Below are positions 50,160 to 55,212 of a DNA stretch of 64,000 bases, piece after piece. The stretch's first letter is position 1. Each line of letters opens with the position of its first letter. The DNA lies in contig NC_016051.1 in assembly GCF_000151205.2 (NCBI RefSeq), forward strand, positions 930,001 through 994,000, in the 5' to 3' direction. Made by a program: the position numbers and the translations under genes. A model generated the notes under the pieces. That model was given only the letters and a program-made list of their open reading frames with translations, was not told the origin of the DNA and did not search any database. This DNA comes from Thermococcus sp. AM4. GTDB lineage: Archaea; Methanobacteriota_B; Thermococci; Thermococcales; Thermococcaceae.

Positions 50160-51848
50160 ATGGAACAGAGGGATCAATGGGCAACAAAGATCGGTTTGAT
50201 TTTGGCCATGGCTGGAAACGCGGTTGGCCTTGGTAACTTCGTCAGGTTCCCAACCCAGGTCGCCCAGAACGGTGGCGGCGCCTTCATGGTGCCGTATTTC
50301 ATAGCACTGTTCTTCCTCGGTATCCCAGTGATGTGGATTGAGTGGGTGGCAGGTCGCTACGGTGGCAAATATGGCCACGGTACCCTCGGTCCAACATACT
50401 ACCTCATGGCAAGGGAGAGCGTCAAGCCGAGAAGCGCCCTCTGGTGGGGTGTCATCAGCGGTATGCTGGCCTTTTCGCTGACCATACTCCTCAACAGCTA
50501 CTACCTGCACCTCATAGGCTGGTCGGCGGCATATTCATGGTTCAGCATAACCGGGGCGTACTTCGGCAAGAACACCGGTGATTTCTTCGTCCAGTACCTC
50601 AGCAATCACACGGAGGTGTTCCTGTTCTGGGGCATCACCGTTATACTGCTGGCGATAGCGGTCGGTCAGGGTGTCAGCAAGGGTATCGAGAGATGGGTCA
50701 AGGTAATGATGCCGTTGCTCTACATATTCGCAATCATAATGGTCGGCTACGTCTTTGTACTCGGCTCCCCGGTTGACCCCAACTGGAGCACCATAGACGG
50801 CTTCAAGTTCATCTGGAGCCCGAACTGGGCTTACCTCAAGGAGCACTTCGCGGCGGTCATGCTCGCGGCAACGGGACAGATATTCTTCACCCTCTCGCTA
50901 GGTATGGGTATCATCCAGAACTACGCCAGCTACCTCGGCCCCAAGGATGACGTTGCTCTCTCAGGTATAGCAACTGTTTCACTCAACGAGTTCGCAGAGG
51001 TTGTCCTCGGCGGTTCAATAGCCATACCGCTCGCAACGGCTTACTTCACCAAGATAGTCTCCCCAGACCTCGTCGCCAAGGCCTTTAAAGACGCCCCGAG
51101 CTTCCTCATACAGATGGGAGTTCCCCAGAACATAGCAACCTCGGGAGACAAGAGCGCAATTGCAAACTACCTCAGCCAGCACTGGGGAGAGATCATGCAG
51201 TACCTCACCCAGCACAAGGACATCGGCCTGAAGGCCATTGGAAACACCTTCGGACTCGGCTTCTCGTACACGAGCCTACCGAACGCGTTCGTCAGCATGG
51301 GCGATGCAGGAAGGATCTTCGGTGCACTGTGGTTCCTCCTGCTCTGGTTCGCGGGCTTCACCTCTGCAATAGCCATGTACAACTACGTCGTGGCTCTCCT
51401 CGAAGAGGACCTCGGCATAAAGAGGAACGTCGGAACATGGATCACCTTCATAATATACCTCATCGCAGGACTGCCGGTCATCTACATCAGCGGCTACATG
51501 GACCAGGTTGACGCATGGGTGAGCTTCCAGCTGACCCTGCTGGCGCTCTTCGACATCATCGTCGCGGTGTACCTCTTCAAGCCCGACAACTTCTGGAAGG
51601 AGCTCCACGAGGGGGCATGGATGAAGGTCCCAGAGTGGTACAAGCCAATAATCCTCTACATCGCGCCGCTGCTCCTCATGATACCGCTCCTCGGAATGGT
51701 CAAGAGCCTCATAGGAACGACCCTTGAGTGGCCTGCCAGGATTGCAATAATCCTCATGTGGATCCTCGGATTCGTCGAGAGCTACTACTCCATCAAGAAG
51801 AAGTACGGCGAGGAGCTCGAGAAGAACGAGGTAATCATAAAGGTCTGA
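50160..51848 (+). CDS. sodium:neurotransmitter symporter (NSS/SNF) family transporter
   Basis: A 562-residue, about 12-helix transporter that carries an amino acid or related solute with sodium. The helix-1 motif AGNAVGLGNFVRFPTQVAQN (sodium/substrate site) is nearly canonical. FGLGFSYTSLPNAF around residues 363-377 covers the helix 8-region site. GGGGGTGATTGA precedes the ATG. A 35-residue membrane peptide gene follows 10 bp after, as in MetP-MetS type importers, so methionine or alanine is a likely substrate. Confidence 0.93.
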   Translation: MEQRDQWATKIGLILAMAGNAVGLGNFVRFPTQVAQNGGGAFMVPYFIALFFLGIPVMWIEWVAGRYGGKYGHGTLGPTYYLMARESVKPRSALWWGVISGMLAFSLTILLNSYYLHLIGWSAAYSWFSITGAYFGKNTGDFFVQYLSNHTEVFLFWGITVILLAIAVGQGVSKGIERWVKVMMPLLYIFAIIMVGYVFVLGSPVDPNWSTIDGFKFIWSPNWAYLKEHFAAVMLAATGQIFFTLSLGMGIIQNYASYLGPKDDVALSGIATVSLNEFAEVVLGGSIAIPLATAYFTKIVSPDLVAKAFKDAPSFLIQMGVPQNIATSGDKSAIANYLSQHWGEIMQYLTQHKDIGLKAIGNTFGLGFSYTSLPNAFVSMGDAGRIFGALWFLLLWFAGFTSAIAMYNYVVALLEEDLGIKRNVGTWITFIIYLIAGLPVIYISGYMDQVDAWVSFQLTLLALFDIIVAVYLFKPDNFWKELHEGAWMKVPEWYKPIILYIAPLLLMIPLLGMVKSLIGTTLEWPARIAIILMWILGFVESYYSIKKKYGEELEKNEVIIKV

Positions 51849-51858
51849 GGTGGTGACG

Positions 51859-51966
51859 ATGGGAAGCTGGGTAATCTACATGCTCTTTGCCTGGTTTGTT
51901 ATTTTTGCCCTCATGTACTGGAGCATCGGAAGGCTCCTCCAGGCCGAGAAGGCACAAGGGTCTTAA
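51859..51966 (+). CDS. 35-residue single-span protein, MetS-like NSS partner
   Basis: Read by hand: MGSWVIYMLFAWFVIFALMY, then WSIGRLLQAEKAQGS. GAGGTGGTGACG precedes the ATG. One transmembrane helix with a basic/acidic tail. The size, the position directly after an NSS transporter and the W-x-x-G-R-x-L-x-x-A tail fit the methionine/alanine import family small subunit (MetS), needed for MetP function in Corynebacterium. Too short for usual gene callers. Confidence 0.7.
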   Translation: MGSWVIYMLFAWFVIFALMYWSIGRLLQAEKAQGS

Positions 51967-52002
51967 GGCCCTTCCTTCTTTTCAACTTTTGGAGGTGCTA
52001 AC

Positions 52003-52737
52003 GTGAAGAGCAAGGACATTCTGCTCGACACAGCGGAGGTTCTCGAATCCACCCTCGATAGAATAGACAAGCTCACGATCCTCACTGAGAAGGAAAAGGC
52101 CAGGGTAAAGGAGAAGATAAAGGAAGCCGCGGAGAACTTCAGGAGAATAGCGGAGGAAGTCGAGAAGGACAACGAGGAGCTGGCCGAGTTCTTCTACAAG
52201 AAGGCCAAGGAGTTCAAGCTCATGAGCACGGACAAAGCCATAGAGAAGGAAGGCAAGAAGAAGTATCTGAAGCTCGCCGATAGAATACTCCTCTACTCAC
52301 GCTCGGCAGAGTACGACTTCAAACCGGAAAGGCTGGCGGAGCTCAAGAAGGTCTACCGGAGGTATCTGTTCGGAATGACGGCTTTCTTCGTGCTCACGGG
52401 CTTTTACCTCAACCAGTTTTTGGCCATAACCGCCCTAATCCTCGCGATTCCAATAATCCTCTCGATGCTCTCCCTTCAGAGGAGGGGTTACCTCGGACTT
52501 CTACTGGCGTATTCGGCAATACCTATCCCAGTAATCGTGGGCGTAATGGCCCTGAGGTACAGCATATACAACCTTATAACCCCCGAAAAAATACAGGAGA
52601 TAGCGGCCAAATTTGGAAAGAGCCCCAGCTTCGTCCAAGGATACCTTATATTCCTGACAATCCTTGCAGCGGTGGAGCTCTACCTCATCGGGAGTGCAAT
52701 CGTCGGCCTCTACAAACACCGCCACGCGTTCCTCTAG
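52003..52737 (+). CDS. coiled-coil membrane protein of unknown function
   Basis: A 244-residue protein starting at a GTG with GGAGGTGCTAAC upstream. Residues 1-110 are a charged helical/coiled-coil region (LTILTEKEKARVKEKIKEAA then ENFRRIAEEVEKDNEELAEF). Residues 120-244 contain four hydrophobic spans (YLFGMTAFFVLTGFYLNQFL, ITALILAIPIILSML, LGLLLAYSAIPIPVIVGVMA and a last one ending YLIGSAIVGLYKH). No family recognised. It lies 36 bp after the MetS-like gene, so it may regulate or assist the NSS transporter. Its stop overlaps the convergent branching enzyme by 4 bp. Confidence 0.75.
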   Translation: MKSKDILLDTAEVLESTLDRIDKLTILTEKEKARVKEKIKEAAENFRRIAEEVEKDNEELAEFFYKKAKEFKLMSTDKAIEKEGKKKYLKLADRILLYSRSAEYDFKPERLAELKKVYRRYLFGMTAFFVLTGFYLNQFLAITALILAIPIILSMLSLQRRGYLGLLLAYSAIPIPVIVGVMALRYSIYNLITPEKIQEIAAKFGKSPSFVQGYLIFLTILAAVELYLIGSAIVGLYKHRHAFL

Positions 52738-54824
52738 AGCTGCTCCACGAACCTTCTCAACCTTTTTATTGAAATCCTGCTCTTCTTCGCGAGCTCCTCA
52801 AGGTCCGCACGGAGGAGATCATCCGGCGTCTTTATCCCAGCCCTGTTAAGCCTAGCAAGGGTTTTTGGTCCTATGCCCTTAACGTCTATGAGGCGCTTCA
52901 AGCGCGGGCGTTTCTCCTCGGCCTTAGGCTTTCCGGACTTTTCAACCCTCTCGACCCTTTTGGTGAGCCTCGTGTCGAGCCTCTTCGCGAGGGGAACCTT
53001 CGGCTTTCTCCTCTTCACGAAGGCGAGCGAACTCGCGTAAAATCTCTCCACCCGTTCTTTGACATCTGGAGTTTCAACGGCTTTTCCTCGGGTGCTGTTC
53101 CCGCTCTCTGTCCCTTCAGCACGTTCCTCTGCGGAAACTTCGTTCTCATCTGGAGTCCCTGAGGTAGATTCCTCCTCAGGCGGAACCTCCAGCGGTTCGA
53201 CGAACTCTTCAAGCTCAGGTGGATTGTCGCTGACGTAGTGGGCAACTATCACCGGCCTGAAGGGGTTGTCGCGCTCCTCAAGCTCCTCGAGGAGTGAAAC
53301 GTCCATCTCGCCGGTCCTGAAGTACCTGACGACCTCGTTGGCGAGCCTGTGGAAGTCCCTGCTGTGGAGCAGAACGCGCCTCCCGGCGTAGGCCTTCGCC
53401 TGGCCCGTCGTTATGAGGAACTGCCAGTCGCTCGCCTCAAGGATTAGAAGCTCCCTCGCGAGCTGTTCCATCGCCCTGTCTCCGAGCTTATCCTTACCGT
53501 AAAAGCGGCTCGCCAGCGCGACCATACGCTCCTCCGCACGGTAGATTTCCTCCCACGTCCACTCCGTTTCCGGATTCCACCACGTCGAGTGATCCGCGTT
53601 GGCACCCCACGAGCCTTCGGGAAGTTCAACCTCAAGCCTCTCCTCGGAGTAGTTCGAGAGGAAGGCCGAAAGCGTCGTCGTTTTGATTCCCCTCTCGGCA
53701 AGAAGCTCAAGAACCCTGCCAAGCCACTTAACTCCCTCGTACCACCAGTGGCCAAAGAGCTCGGTGTCGTAGGGGGCAACGATTATCCCCTTCTCACCTG
53801 TCTCCTTCTCGAACCTCGCGAGCAGGTCCTCGACGAGGGAAACGAAGTGTCTCGCGTGCTCTTCAACCCGCTCAAGGGCCTTCTCGGGGTCGTAGAAGTC
53901 CTTCTCGCCCAGATCAACGTCCTTACCGGTTACGCGCCAGTACTGGTTGCCGCTCCGCTCGGCCTTCCTGTGGAACTCCCGGTAATAGAAGTCGCCGGGG
54001 TAGCCGTAGTGGGCGCTCCAGACCTGATGGCCCGTCTCGCGGTTCCTCGCGAAGACCGCAACGTTTGACCCCTTGACCCAGTAGGGCCTGAGCGTCGCGA
54101 GAGAACCAGTAGGAACCGGGGCGCCATAGGAGTCGCCCACCGGTCCGTTATCAACGAGGTTGCTCTCGACGAAGAAGTATTCGATTCCAAACTCCTCGAG
54201 GAACTTCTCTATACCCTTCCTCTCGACGGTTCTTCCTCCGGGGAGAGGCCATTCTCCACCCGGCCTGTAGGCGCACTCGGAAACCCACATTCCCCTTGGC
54301 CTCTTCCCGAAGTGCTTCTCGTAGGTCGCCACTCCGTTGGCTATCTGGGAGCGTATCGACTCCTCCCTCCAGAGGAGGGGCAGGTAGGCGTGTGTCGCGG
54401 GAGAGGTTATGATTTCAAGGTAGCCCTCTCCCTGAAGTTCCCGGAACTTACCAATTATATCGCCGTTTATGGCCTTCCAGTAGGAGTAAACGCGCTCGAA
54501 GTGGCGGAGGACTTCTTTAACGGGCTTCTCGGGGTACTTGCCAGATTCGAGGTCCTCCCTGGTTCTCTCGATTTTTCTGAGGAGGTACTTCTCGAACTCG
54601 GCCTTGATGTAGTCGTCGGCCAGCTGTTCCATCAGGACGGGCGTTATGTTCACGACGAGCTGGAAGCGAACGCCCGAGTCCCTCAACCGCTCGAACTCCA
54701 TGAGCAAGGGGAGATAGCTCTCGCTCATCGCCTCGTAGAGCCACTCCTCGCCGAAGGGCCACTTGCCGTGCTTCCTGACGTAGGGGATGTGAGTGTGAAG
54801 GACGAAGGTCAGATAGCCTTTCAT
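52734..54824 (-). CDS. GH57 1,4-alpha-glucan branching enzyme with C-terminal helix-hairpin-helix
   Basis: A 696-residue enzyme from the ATG 54824 (MKGYLTFVLHTHIPYVRKHG). It makes alpha-1,6 branches in glycogen. The nucleophile Glu183 lies in GMWVSECAYRPGGEWPLP, the same position as in the T. kodakarensis enzyme, which supports this start. The acid/base Asp is in IVAPYDTELFGHWW. After the catalytic core (to about 560) comes an acidic linker (PPEEESTSGTPDENEVSAEE) and a C-terminal HhH domain (LKRLIDVKGIGPKTLARLNR). Such DNA-binding-like tails are known in Thermococcales homologues but have no clear role. Confidence 0.94.
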   Translation of the reverse strand: MKGYLTFVLHTHIPYVRKHGKWPFGEEWLYEAMSESYLPLLMEFERLRDSGVRFQLVVNITPVLMEQLADDYIKAEFEKYLLRKIERTREDLESGKYPEKPVKEVLRHFERVYSYWKAINGDIIGKFRELQGEGYLEIITSPATHAYLPLLWREESIRSQIANGVATYEKHFGKRPRGMWVSECAYRPGGEWPLPGGRTVERKGIEKFLEEFGIEYFFVESNLVDNGPVGDSYGAPVPTGSLATLRPYWVKGSNVAVFARNRETGHQVWSAHYGYPGDFYYREFHRKAERSGNQYWRVTGKDVDLGEKDFYDPEKALERVEEHARHFVSLVEDLLARFEKETGEKGIIVAPYDTELFGHWWYEGVKWLGRVLELLAERGIKTTTLSAFLSNYSEERLEVELPEGSWGANADHSTWWNPETEWTWEEIYRAEERMVALASRFYGKDKLGDRAMEQLARELLILEASDWQFLITTGQAKAYAGRRVLLHSRDFHRLANEVVRYFRTGEMDVSLLEELEERDNPFRPVIVAHYVSDNPPELEEFVEPLEVPPEEESTSGTPDENEVSAEERAEGTESGNSTRGKAVETPDVKERVERFYASSLAFVKRRKPKVPLAKRLDTRLTKRVERVEKSGKPKAEEKRPRLKRLIDVKGIGPKTLARLNRAGIKTPDDLLRADLEELAKKSRISIKRLRRFVEQL

Positions 54825-54951
54825 CTGTATCACCGGGAGTGTTATCGAGCCCGGAGTATTTAACCTTATCCGGAACAGGTCTGTCATTATGGACAGTTAT
54901 GTGCATGGAAAACGTTTTATCCCCCAATCCCAAAGAAAACTCGGTGGTGCT

Positions 54952-55212
54952 ATGAGACTTGACGAGCTTACGGGCACGGAGGGCGGCTTCATTGCGGGGG
55001 CCCTGGCTGTGGTTCTTCTTGGAGCAATAATCTCAGTTCTCTCAATGCCCATCAGAGACATCATGAAGCTCGCCTACTTGATCTACGACATCGGAATCGT
55101 CGGCCTCTCCTTCGGGCTTCTGAACGAGGCCTTTGAAGGGGAAAGAAGCGACGCGATTAGAGCAGCTTTTGCAATCGCGGGAACGATCCTTCTGCTCGCC
55201 CTCAGGCTTTAA
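54952..55212 (+). CDS. small membrane protein
   Basis: An 86-residue protein from the ATG 54952 (GGTGGTGCT upstream); the longer frame from 54889 has no ribosome binding site. Two or three hydrophobic spans (GGFIAGALAVVLLGAIISVL, LAYLIYDIGIVGLSFGLLNE, AFAIAGTILLLALRL). The short GF-x-AGA motif is not family-defining. Function unknown. Its promoter lies in the 127-bp gap shared with the divergent branching enzyme. Confidence 0.7.
   Translation: MRLDELTGTEGGFIAGALAVVLLGAIISVLSMPIRDIMKLAYLIYDIGIVGLSFGLLNEAFEGERSDAIRAAFAIAGTILLLALRL

Follow-up and report, generated by a model that had tools for sequence, protein, structure and literature searches.

A LeuT-type transporter gene and two genes for small membrane proteins keep one order in two archaeal phyla

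Introduction

Does an archaeal transporter of the LeuT type work with dedicated partner proteins? The question is raised by a locus in the window, the stretch of 64,000 nucleotides from Thermococcus sp. AM4 that we analysed (host genome 2.09 Mb, one contig). There, an NSS gene is followed in tandem by a 35-aa ORF with one helix and then by the gene for a 244-aa membrane protein, here called CC. LeuT serves as the structural model for human neurotransmitter transporters and has been studied as a lone subunit. For another member of the superfamily, MetP, a very small partner is known: MetS, which is regarded as stabilising or tuning it. An excerpt of PMC3219685 describes the methionine/alanine importer MetPS of Corynebacterium as an NSS protein with a small subunit; the original 2008 paper on MetPS is cited there and, likewise in excerpt, in PMC5105988. 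A first-pass annotation of the window took the 35-aa ORF for MetS and proposed that the three genes encode a three-part sodium-coupled importer.

Results

Layout of the locus

The ORF coordinates of the window (Table 1) confirmed the tandem arrangement, and the gap of 36 nt that had been reported between the small gene and CC is correct. The ATG of the small ORF lies 10 nt past the NSS stop. Downstream, the end of a gene for a 1,4-alpha-glucan branching enzyme (NF041133; window 52734-54887, minus strand) overlaps the CC stop; the C-terminal tail of this enzyme has weak matches to parts of topoisomerase and RadA models. A hydrophobic ORF of 107 aa, unassigned to a family (window 54889-55212, plus strand), separates the GH57 gene from the large gene that comes next and recurs in some relatives.

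Table 1. Features of the three-gene locus, in window coordinates
Feature	Position	Strand	Basis
LeuT-type NSS (SLC6/SNF), predicted Na+-coupled symporter, 562 aa, ATG start	50160..51848	+	PF00209 1.1e-39
Ribosome-binding-site-like GAGGTGGTGA, overlaps NSS stop, just 5' of small gene	51847..51856	+	sequence inspection
35-aa single-helix membrane protein, unnamed family, candidate small subunit	51859..51966	+	conservation, purifying selection
T-rich spacer from small gene to CC; possible partial terminator	51970..51990	+	T-run excess over shuffles
Ribosome-binding-site-like GGAGGTG ahead of CC	51991..51997	+	sequence inspection
CC, 244 aa, GTG start: N-terminal helical domain, four membrane helices, conserved C-terminus (YKHRHAFL)	52003..52737	+	

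The transporter is of the LeuT type

The window NSS scores 137 bits against PF00209, above the curated cut-off of 27, and it is the one PF00209 gene found in its genome; several Thermococcaceae genomes carry further NSS paralogues, among the matches listed. The solved structures closest to it are LeuT entries (2a65 at 7.6e-84). MhsT (PDB 4us3), which we take to be the NSS of Bacillus halodurans, belongs to the same superfamily but is much less similar (2.6e-30), and eukaryotic SLC6 proteins reach 4.6e-15 at best. By sequence similarity, then, the window NSS is a LeuT-type protein, nearer LeuT than the other solved NSS.

Ligand positions were mapped through the 2a65 alignment in 101 genomes, six of which have no usable NSS frame and one of which (G015) is counted apart. 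The residues that we take to hold Na+ in LeuT of Aquifex aeolicus (A22, N27, T254 and N286, and G20, V23, A351, T354 and S355, in Na1 and Na2 roles) are identical or conservatively replaced (V/I at 23, T/S at 254) in 94 of 94 aligned LeuT-type homologues. The equivalents of the R30-D404 gate and of E290 are likewise kept in all 94, with one gap at D404. Conservation of the Na+ sites is therefore established, and the conserved Na1, Na2 and gate residues lead us to predict that the window NSS takes up a neutral amino acid in a Na+-coupled manner. The window NSS departs from LeuT at three pocket positions, with L for V104, M for F259 and M for I359. Among the homologues, position 104 is mostly L and position 259 is M (with I in four members of the second phylum described below). 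Position 359 is either M or T, and in the second phylum it is M, I or L.

The structure model of the window NSS has low confidence (pLDDT 49.7), and a C-terminal hydrophobic segment is visible in the sequence. An insertion of roughly 40 residues at about residues 310-350 is missing from many orthologues and present in a few relatives.

The small ORF is a gene

An ORF of 27-38 aa that starts at most 11 nt past the NSS stop follows 88 of the 89 tabulated NSS genes, the exception being a contig end; the 27-aa case, in G107, is cut by a contig end, and some of the lengths count an in-frame upstream ATG. Queried with the small protein, 35 of 37 genomes of the same genus gave a match, a weak one in G022 (E 0.007) and G023 (E 0.05). 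The two others have a different small protein in its place (G015) or a contig end (G032). Codons were compared in pairs that are at least 75% identical. For three sequence types, pN/pS in frame was 0.21 (200 pairs), 0.18 (272 pairs) and 0.12 (24 pairs), and in both shifted frames it was at least 1.16. Since the ORF is conserved and is under purifying selection in frame, these comparisons establish it as a real gene; a chance ORF is ruled out by the codon statistics. Some genomes offer GTG starts further upstream, but other genomes have these out of frame, so the ATG at 51859 is preferred. The basic C-terminus of the helix suggests an N-out/C-in orientation. No Pfam or NCBIfam family was over cut-off for the window small protein.

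The order of the three genes is conserved in Thermococcaceae

We searched 94 Thermococcaceae genomes and tabulated 91, leaving out the incomplete G083, G106 and G109, in which neither a convincing CC nor a strong NSS of the LeuT type was found. The order NSS, small gene, CC holds in all 86 tabulated genomes that have NSS and CC on one stretch. The distance from the NSS stop to CC is 145-164 nt in 85 of these and 343 nt in G015. In the remaining five of the 91, the locus runs into contig ends (G032, G063, G081 and G107; in G081, CC is at a contig end and NSS on another contig) or has suffered a deletion (G103). The trio is a conserved unit. What lies upstream of it differs: scored as whichever sought gene lies upstream on the stretch, not necessarily as the immediate neighbour, this is glutamate dehydrogenase in 69 of the 91 genomes, an ABC binding protein in 10 and neither in eight, and four could not be assessed.

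Several genomes have altered loci. G103 has lost NSS, the small gene and half of CC together; what remains (L115:2422-3827) is a truncated CC beside a truncated glutamate dehydrogenase, and an assembly error is possible there. The NSS frame of G065 is short, and the small gene and CC remain. In G100 and G101 (L112 and L113), the NSS frame is interrupted, with about 0.9 kb between the pieces, or split in two frames, and the small gene and CC look intact. G016 has two divergent copies of the trio on short contigs (C179 and C201), from duplication or from mixed strains.

The trio recurs in a second archaeal phylum

A CC profile, run against 396 relatives, matched 88 genomes of Thermococcaceae and, in another family, G139 (2.4e-46). 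A weak match in G195, which has an E of 0.003 and an in-frame stop, was attributed to chance. CC and NSS of G139 are 32% and 49% identical to those of the window. In the phylum of G139, which was searched with CC only, 10 of 398 genomes (drawn from a larger group) have CC, and all 10 belong to one family. Each has an NSS gene directly upstream and, between the two, an ORF for a one-helix protein of 32-64 aa. Three of these CC matches are weak (1.5e-5 to 3.8e-7) and are supported by being seated in the same trio. In L234, the stop of the small gene and the start of CC overlap, and with TTG as the CC start the same applies to L235 and L236. This suggests that translation of the two genes is coupled there. 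Seven of the ten small proteins were tested against the Thermococcaceae profile and scored 12.2-29.7 bits, with none of 300 shuffles as good in any case. The small proteins of both phyla thus seem to form one unnamed family.

The order of the three genes, whose conservation the first-pass annotation had asked to be checked, is therefore established in two phyla, at 86 of 86 and 10 of 10. The same annotation had expected its proposal to fail if CC were found mostly away from NSS genes, and the opposite was observed: no convincing CC away from an NSS locus was found in the 396 relatives and the 398 genomes of the second phylum. A scan of genome contigs with two narrow patterns gave 21 CC loci, all in Thermococcus, Thermococcaceae or Thermococcales, and no CC was found on PLSDB plasmids. 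Conversely, 11 genomes of the class that do not belong to the family (G043 and ten f3 genomes) have more distant NSS genes (E 1e-18 to 1e-36) and gave no convincing CC. The association with CC is not general to all NSS genes.

An apparent natural replacement of the transporter

In G015, the locus holds a different NSS, then a canonical MetS (NF033493, 47.2 bits; cut-off 25), a further ORF and CC. This NSS is 29% identical to that of the window and has eukaryotic SLC6 transporters as its closest solved proteins (3e-71); the CC is 43% identical to the window CC. G107 has an NSS similar to that of G015, with MetS (NF033493, 36.4 bits) and then a contig end. Both assemblies are incomplete (85% and 77%) and could be misassembled at this point; as they stand, the NSS-MetS block (L096:4143-5740 in G015, L163:1972-3568 in G107) is 90% identical between the two and the glutamate dehydrogenase side is 76% identical, which suggests that the two genes travel together as a cassette. 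It seems that this two-gene cassette replaced NSS and the small gene, and that CC stayed in G015. The 84-aa ORF between MetS and CC in G015 (L096:5760-6014) has hydrophobic stretches and overlaps the start region of CC. The swap is our best clue that the function of the small protein is MetS-like and that CC works for the transporter locus as such, not for a single type of NSS.

A cassette of two genes also fits another explanation, that NSS and the small protein make up a two-part importer like MetPS, and that CC has a separate function, for example in membrane quality control or stress sensing, and shares expression only. The spacer ahead of CC may separate transcripts. A run of at least five T was present in 49 of 85 small-gene-to-CC spacers (two of the 85 are empty), compared with a mean of 29% and a maximum of 40% in shuffled spacers, and a portion of PMC8716108 describes U-tracts that function in archaeal termination. 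The T-rich spacer may lower the output of CC relative to that of NSS and the small gene. However, every CC with an intact upstream stretch stands directly behind NSS and a small gene, and G015 kept CC beside the other type of NSS. A general function of CC should sometimes occur away from NSS genes, and the failure to find CC elsewhere argues against one. We therefore consider a separate role for CC unlikely.

The small protein and MetS

MetPS of Corynebacterium and the window trio are alike in pairing an NSS gene with a gene for a very small protein, and MetS-like small subunits of NF033493 have the same position and size as the window protein. Nevertheless, the identification as MetS did not hold up: in Pfam and NCBIfam, the small protein had no listed match to PF16951, NF033493 or NF033494 in a search with an E limit of 10, whose filters drop most matches above 0.1. 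The window locus further differs from MetPS in its LeuT-type NSS and its third gene, CC. Among 115 genomes of the phylum, NF033493 is over cut-off in G015 and G107 only, where the canonical members occupy the locus itself; PF16951 is over cut-off in none of the 115, with sub-threshold matches at E up to 1 in 35.

Could the small protein nonetheless be a true MetS that has diverged fast, making the locus a MetPS of the usual kind plus one gene? It has the same place, the same size and one helix, and canonical MetS was exchanged in at G015 and G107. Against this reading are the missing matches to the three MetS families among those listed and the difference between the two NSS types, which share 29% identity. 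In addition, the Thermococcaceae small-protein profile gave the MetS of G015 only 0.2 bits, and 622 of 1,896 scored shuffles (2,000 made) did as well, although this is a comparison with one canonical MetS sequence, and one between such short helices has little power. We think that a diverged MetS is improbable. Its sequence places the small protein outside the MetS families, and kinship to MetS is not supported. A MetS-like role is plausible, given the position and size of the protein and the fact that a true MetS takes its place in G015 and G107.

The CC protein

CC had been described as a coiled coil with four membrane spans. The four spans agree with our analysis (108-134, 138-159, 163-192 in two pieces, and 208-238; membrane placement was read from sequence), but in the structure model (mean pLDDT 91.9) the N-terminal half consists of several helices (3-22, 29-51, 58-74, 77-83 and 85-101) and not of one long coiled coil. 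Residues invariant among 15 aligned members from both phyla include N57, A61, A102, Y104, F106, R161, P174, P176, R240, A242 and F243. Positive charges in the TM2-TM3 loop and in the tail suggest that both ends are inside.

CC has no named family over cut-off in Pfam (15 members searched; the best match, for the member shown, is PF14973 at 8.6e-4) or in NCBIfam (3 members), and Foldseek gave no solved structure with E under 0.001. The best VIA-align match, a talin domain with Z = 10.2, is within the range that the notes of that program give for helical models. As modelled, CC has no clear solved fold, and we do not claim that its fold is new.

A P-II gene near CC

In 62 of the 91 tabulated genomes, the labelled gene that follows CC most closely is P-II, in convergent orientation (in G015, L096:6729-7043, minus strand). 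The L096 P-II, the one that was aligned to solved structures, has a T-loop shorter by 8 residues. G111, G113 and G114 have P-II adjacent to AmtB (G111:C1:459435-461041, G113:C10:14345-15951 and G114:C1:146537-148143) and a second P-II beside CC.

These observations would fit nitrogen regulation of the transporter, with CC or NSS as the target of P-II in the way that AmtB is the target of GlnK: the position is common, the T-loop is shortened, and where there are two P-II genes the other one adjoins AmtB instead. However, P-II lies apart from CC and stays with the GH57 gene in G062, G063 and G117, and in G061 it is with neither. Moreover, no P-II was found in the genome of the window or in the g12 genomes, and the trio persists there. 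We rejected P-II as a specific partner of the trio, as it follows GH57 in three of the four cases apart from CC, and regulation of the transporter by P-II seems very improbable.

Discussion

We favour the view, with a probability of about 0.6, that the three genes function as a unit and encode a LeuT-type Na+/amino-acid symporter together with two accessory proteins, which are dedicated to it and come from unnamed families. The order of the trio is kept while the upstream neighbours differ, G103 lost parts of all three genes together, and CC of G015 still adjoins another type of NSS that has its own MetS; each of these argues for a unit. The trio of the second phylum, with its related small proteins, and the overlap of the small gene with the start of CC in L234 (also in L235 and L236, given the TTG start) support it as well. 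Counting against it are the NSS genes without CC in 11 class members and the T-rich spacer, which could end an NSS-small-gene transcript before CC. Of the three-part sodium-coupled importer that was first proposed, the conserved unit and the Na+ sites stand, and MetS as its small part does not.

Conserved gene order is linkage, not binding, and we infer a physical complex, shared regulation, the roles of the companions and the substrate. NSS would run the usual LeuT cycle, carrying two Na+ with one neutral amino acid of small or medium size. The small helix might lie against its NSS, stabilising or tuning the transporter as MetS may do for MetP. CC could use its membrane helices to bind the NSS-small protein pair, and the cytoplasmic bundle and the conserved tail of CC might serve assembly or gating. 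LeuT was reportedly crystallised as a single gene product, so the companions should not be needed for the NSS fold.

Alternatively, the two companions might be assembly and stability factors that are required only during insertion of the transporter at high temperature and are not parts of the working importer. The two lineages that have CC are, we presume, hyperthermophiles, and the small protein is similar in size to the known stabilising peptides CydX and KdpF. But a two-subunit NSS importer is also described, in an excerpt of PMC3219685, from the mesophile Corynebacterium, so high temperature cannot be the whole reason for a small partner. We hold this alternative to be possible, though doubtful.

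Returning to the trio as one functional unit, we found no published work on it among the matches listed in a literature search that barely covered subscription journals. If a LeuT-type transporter is tied to two small partners in both archaeal phyla, it would be a tractable, heat-stable system in which to study how accessory proteins tune NSS transporters, and the trio would name two protein families that Pfam and NCBIfam have missed. We speculate, tentatively, that archaeal LeuT-type symporters are natively three-component complexes of a pocket-bearing NSS, a one-helix micro-subunit matched to the type of NSS, and CC, which would represent a new class of NSS regulator and couple the inner gate to a cytoplasmic helical bundle. 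If so, LeuT, the paradigm of the family, may have been studied without its partners.
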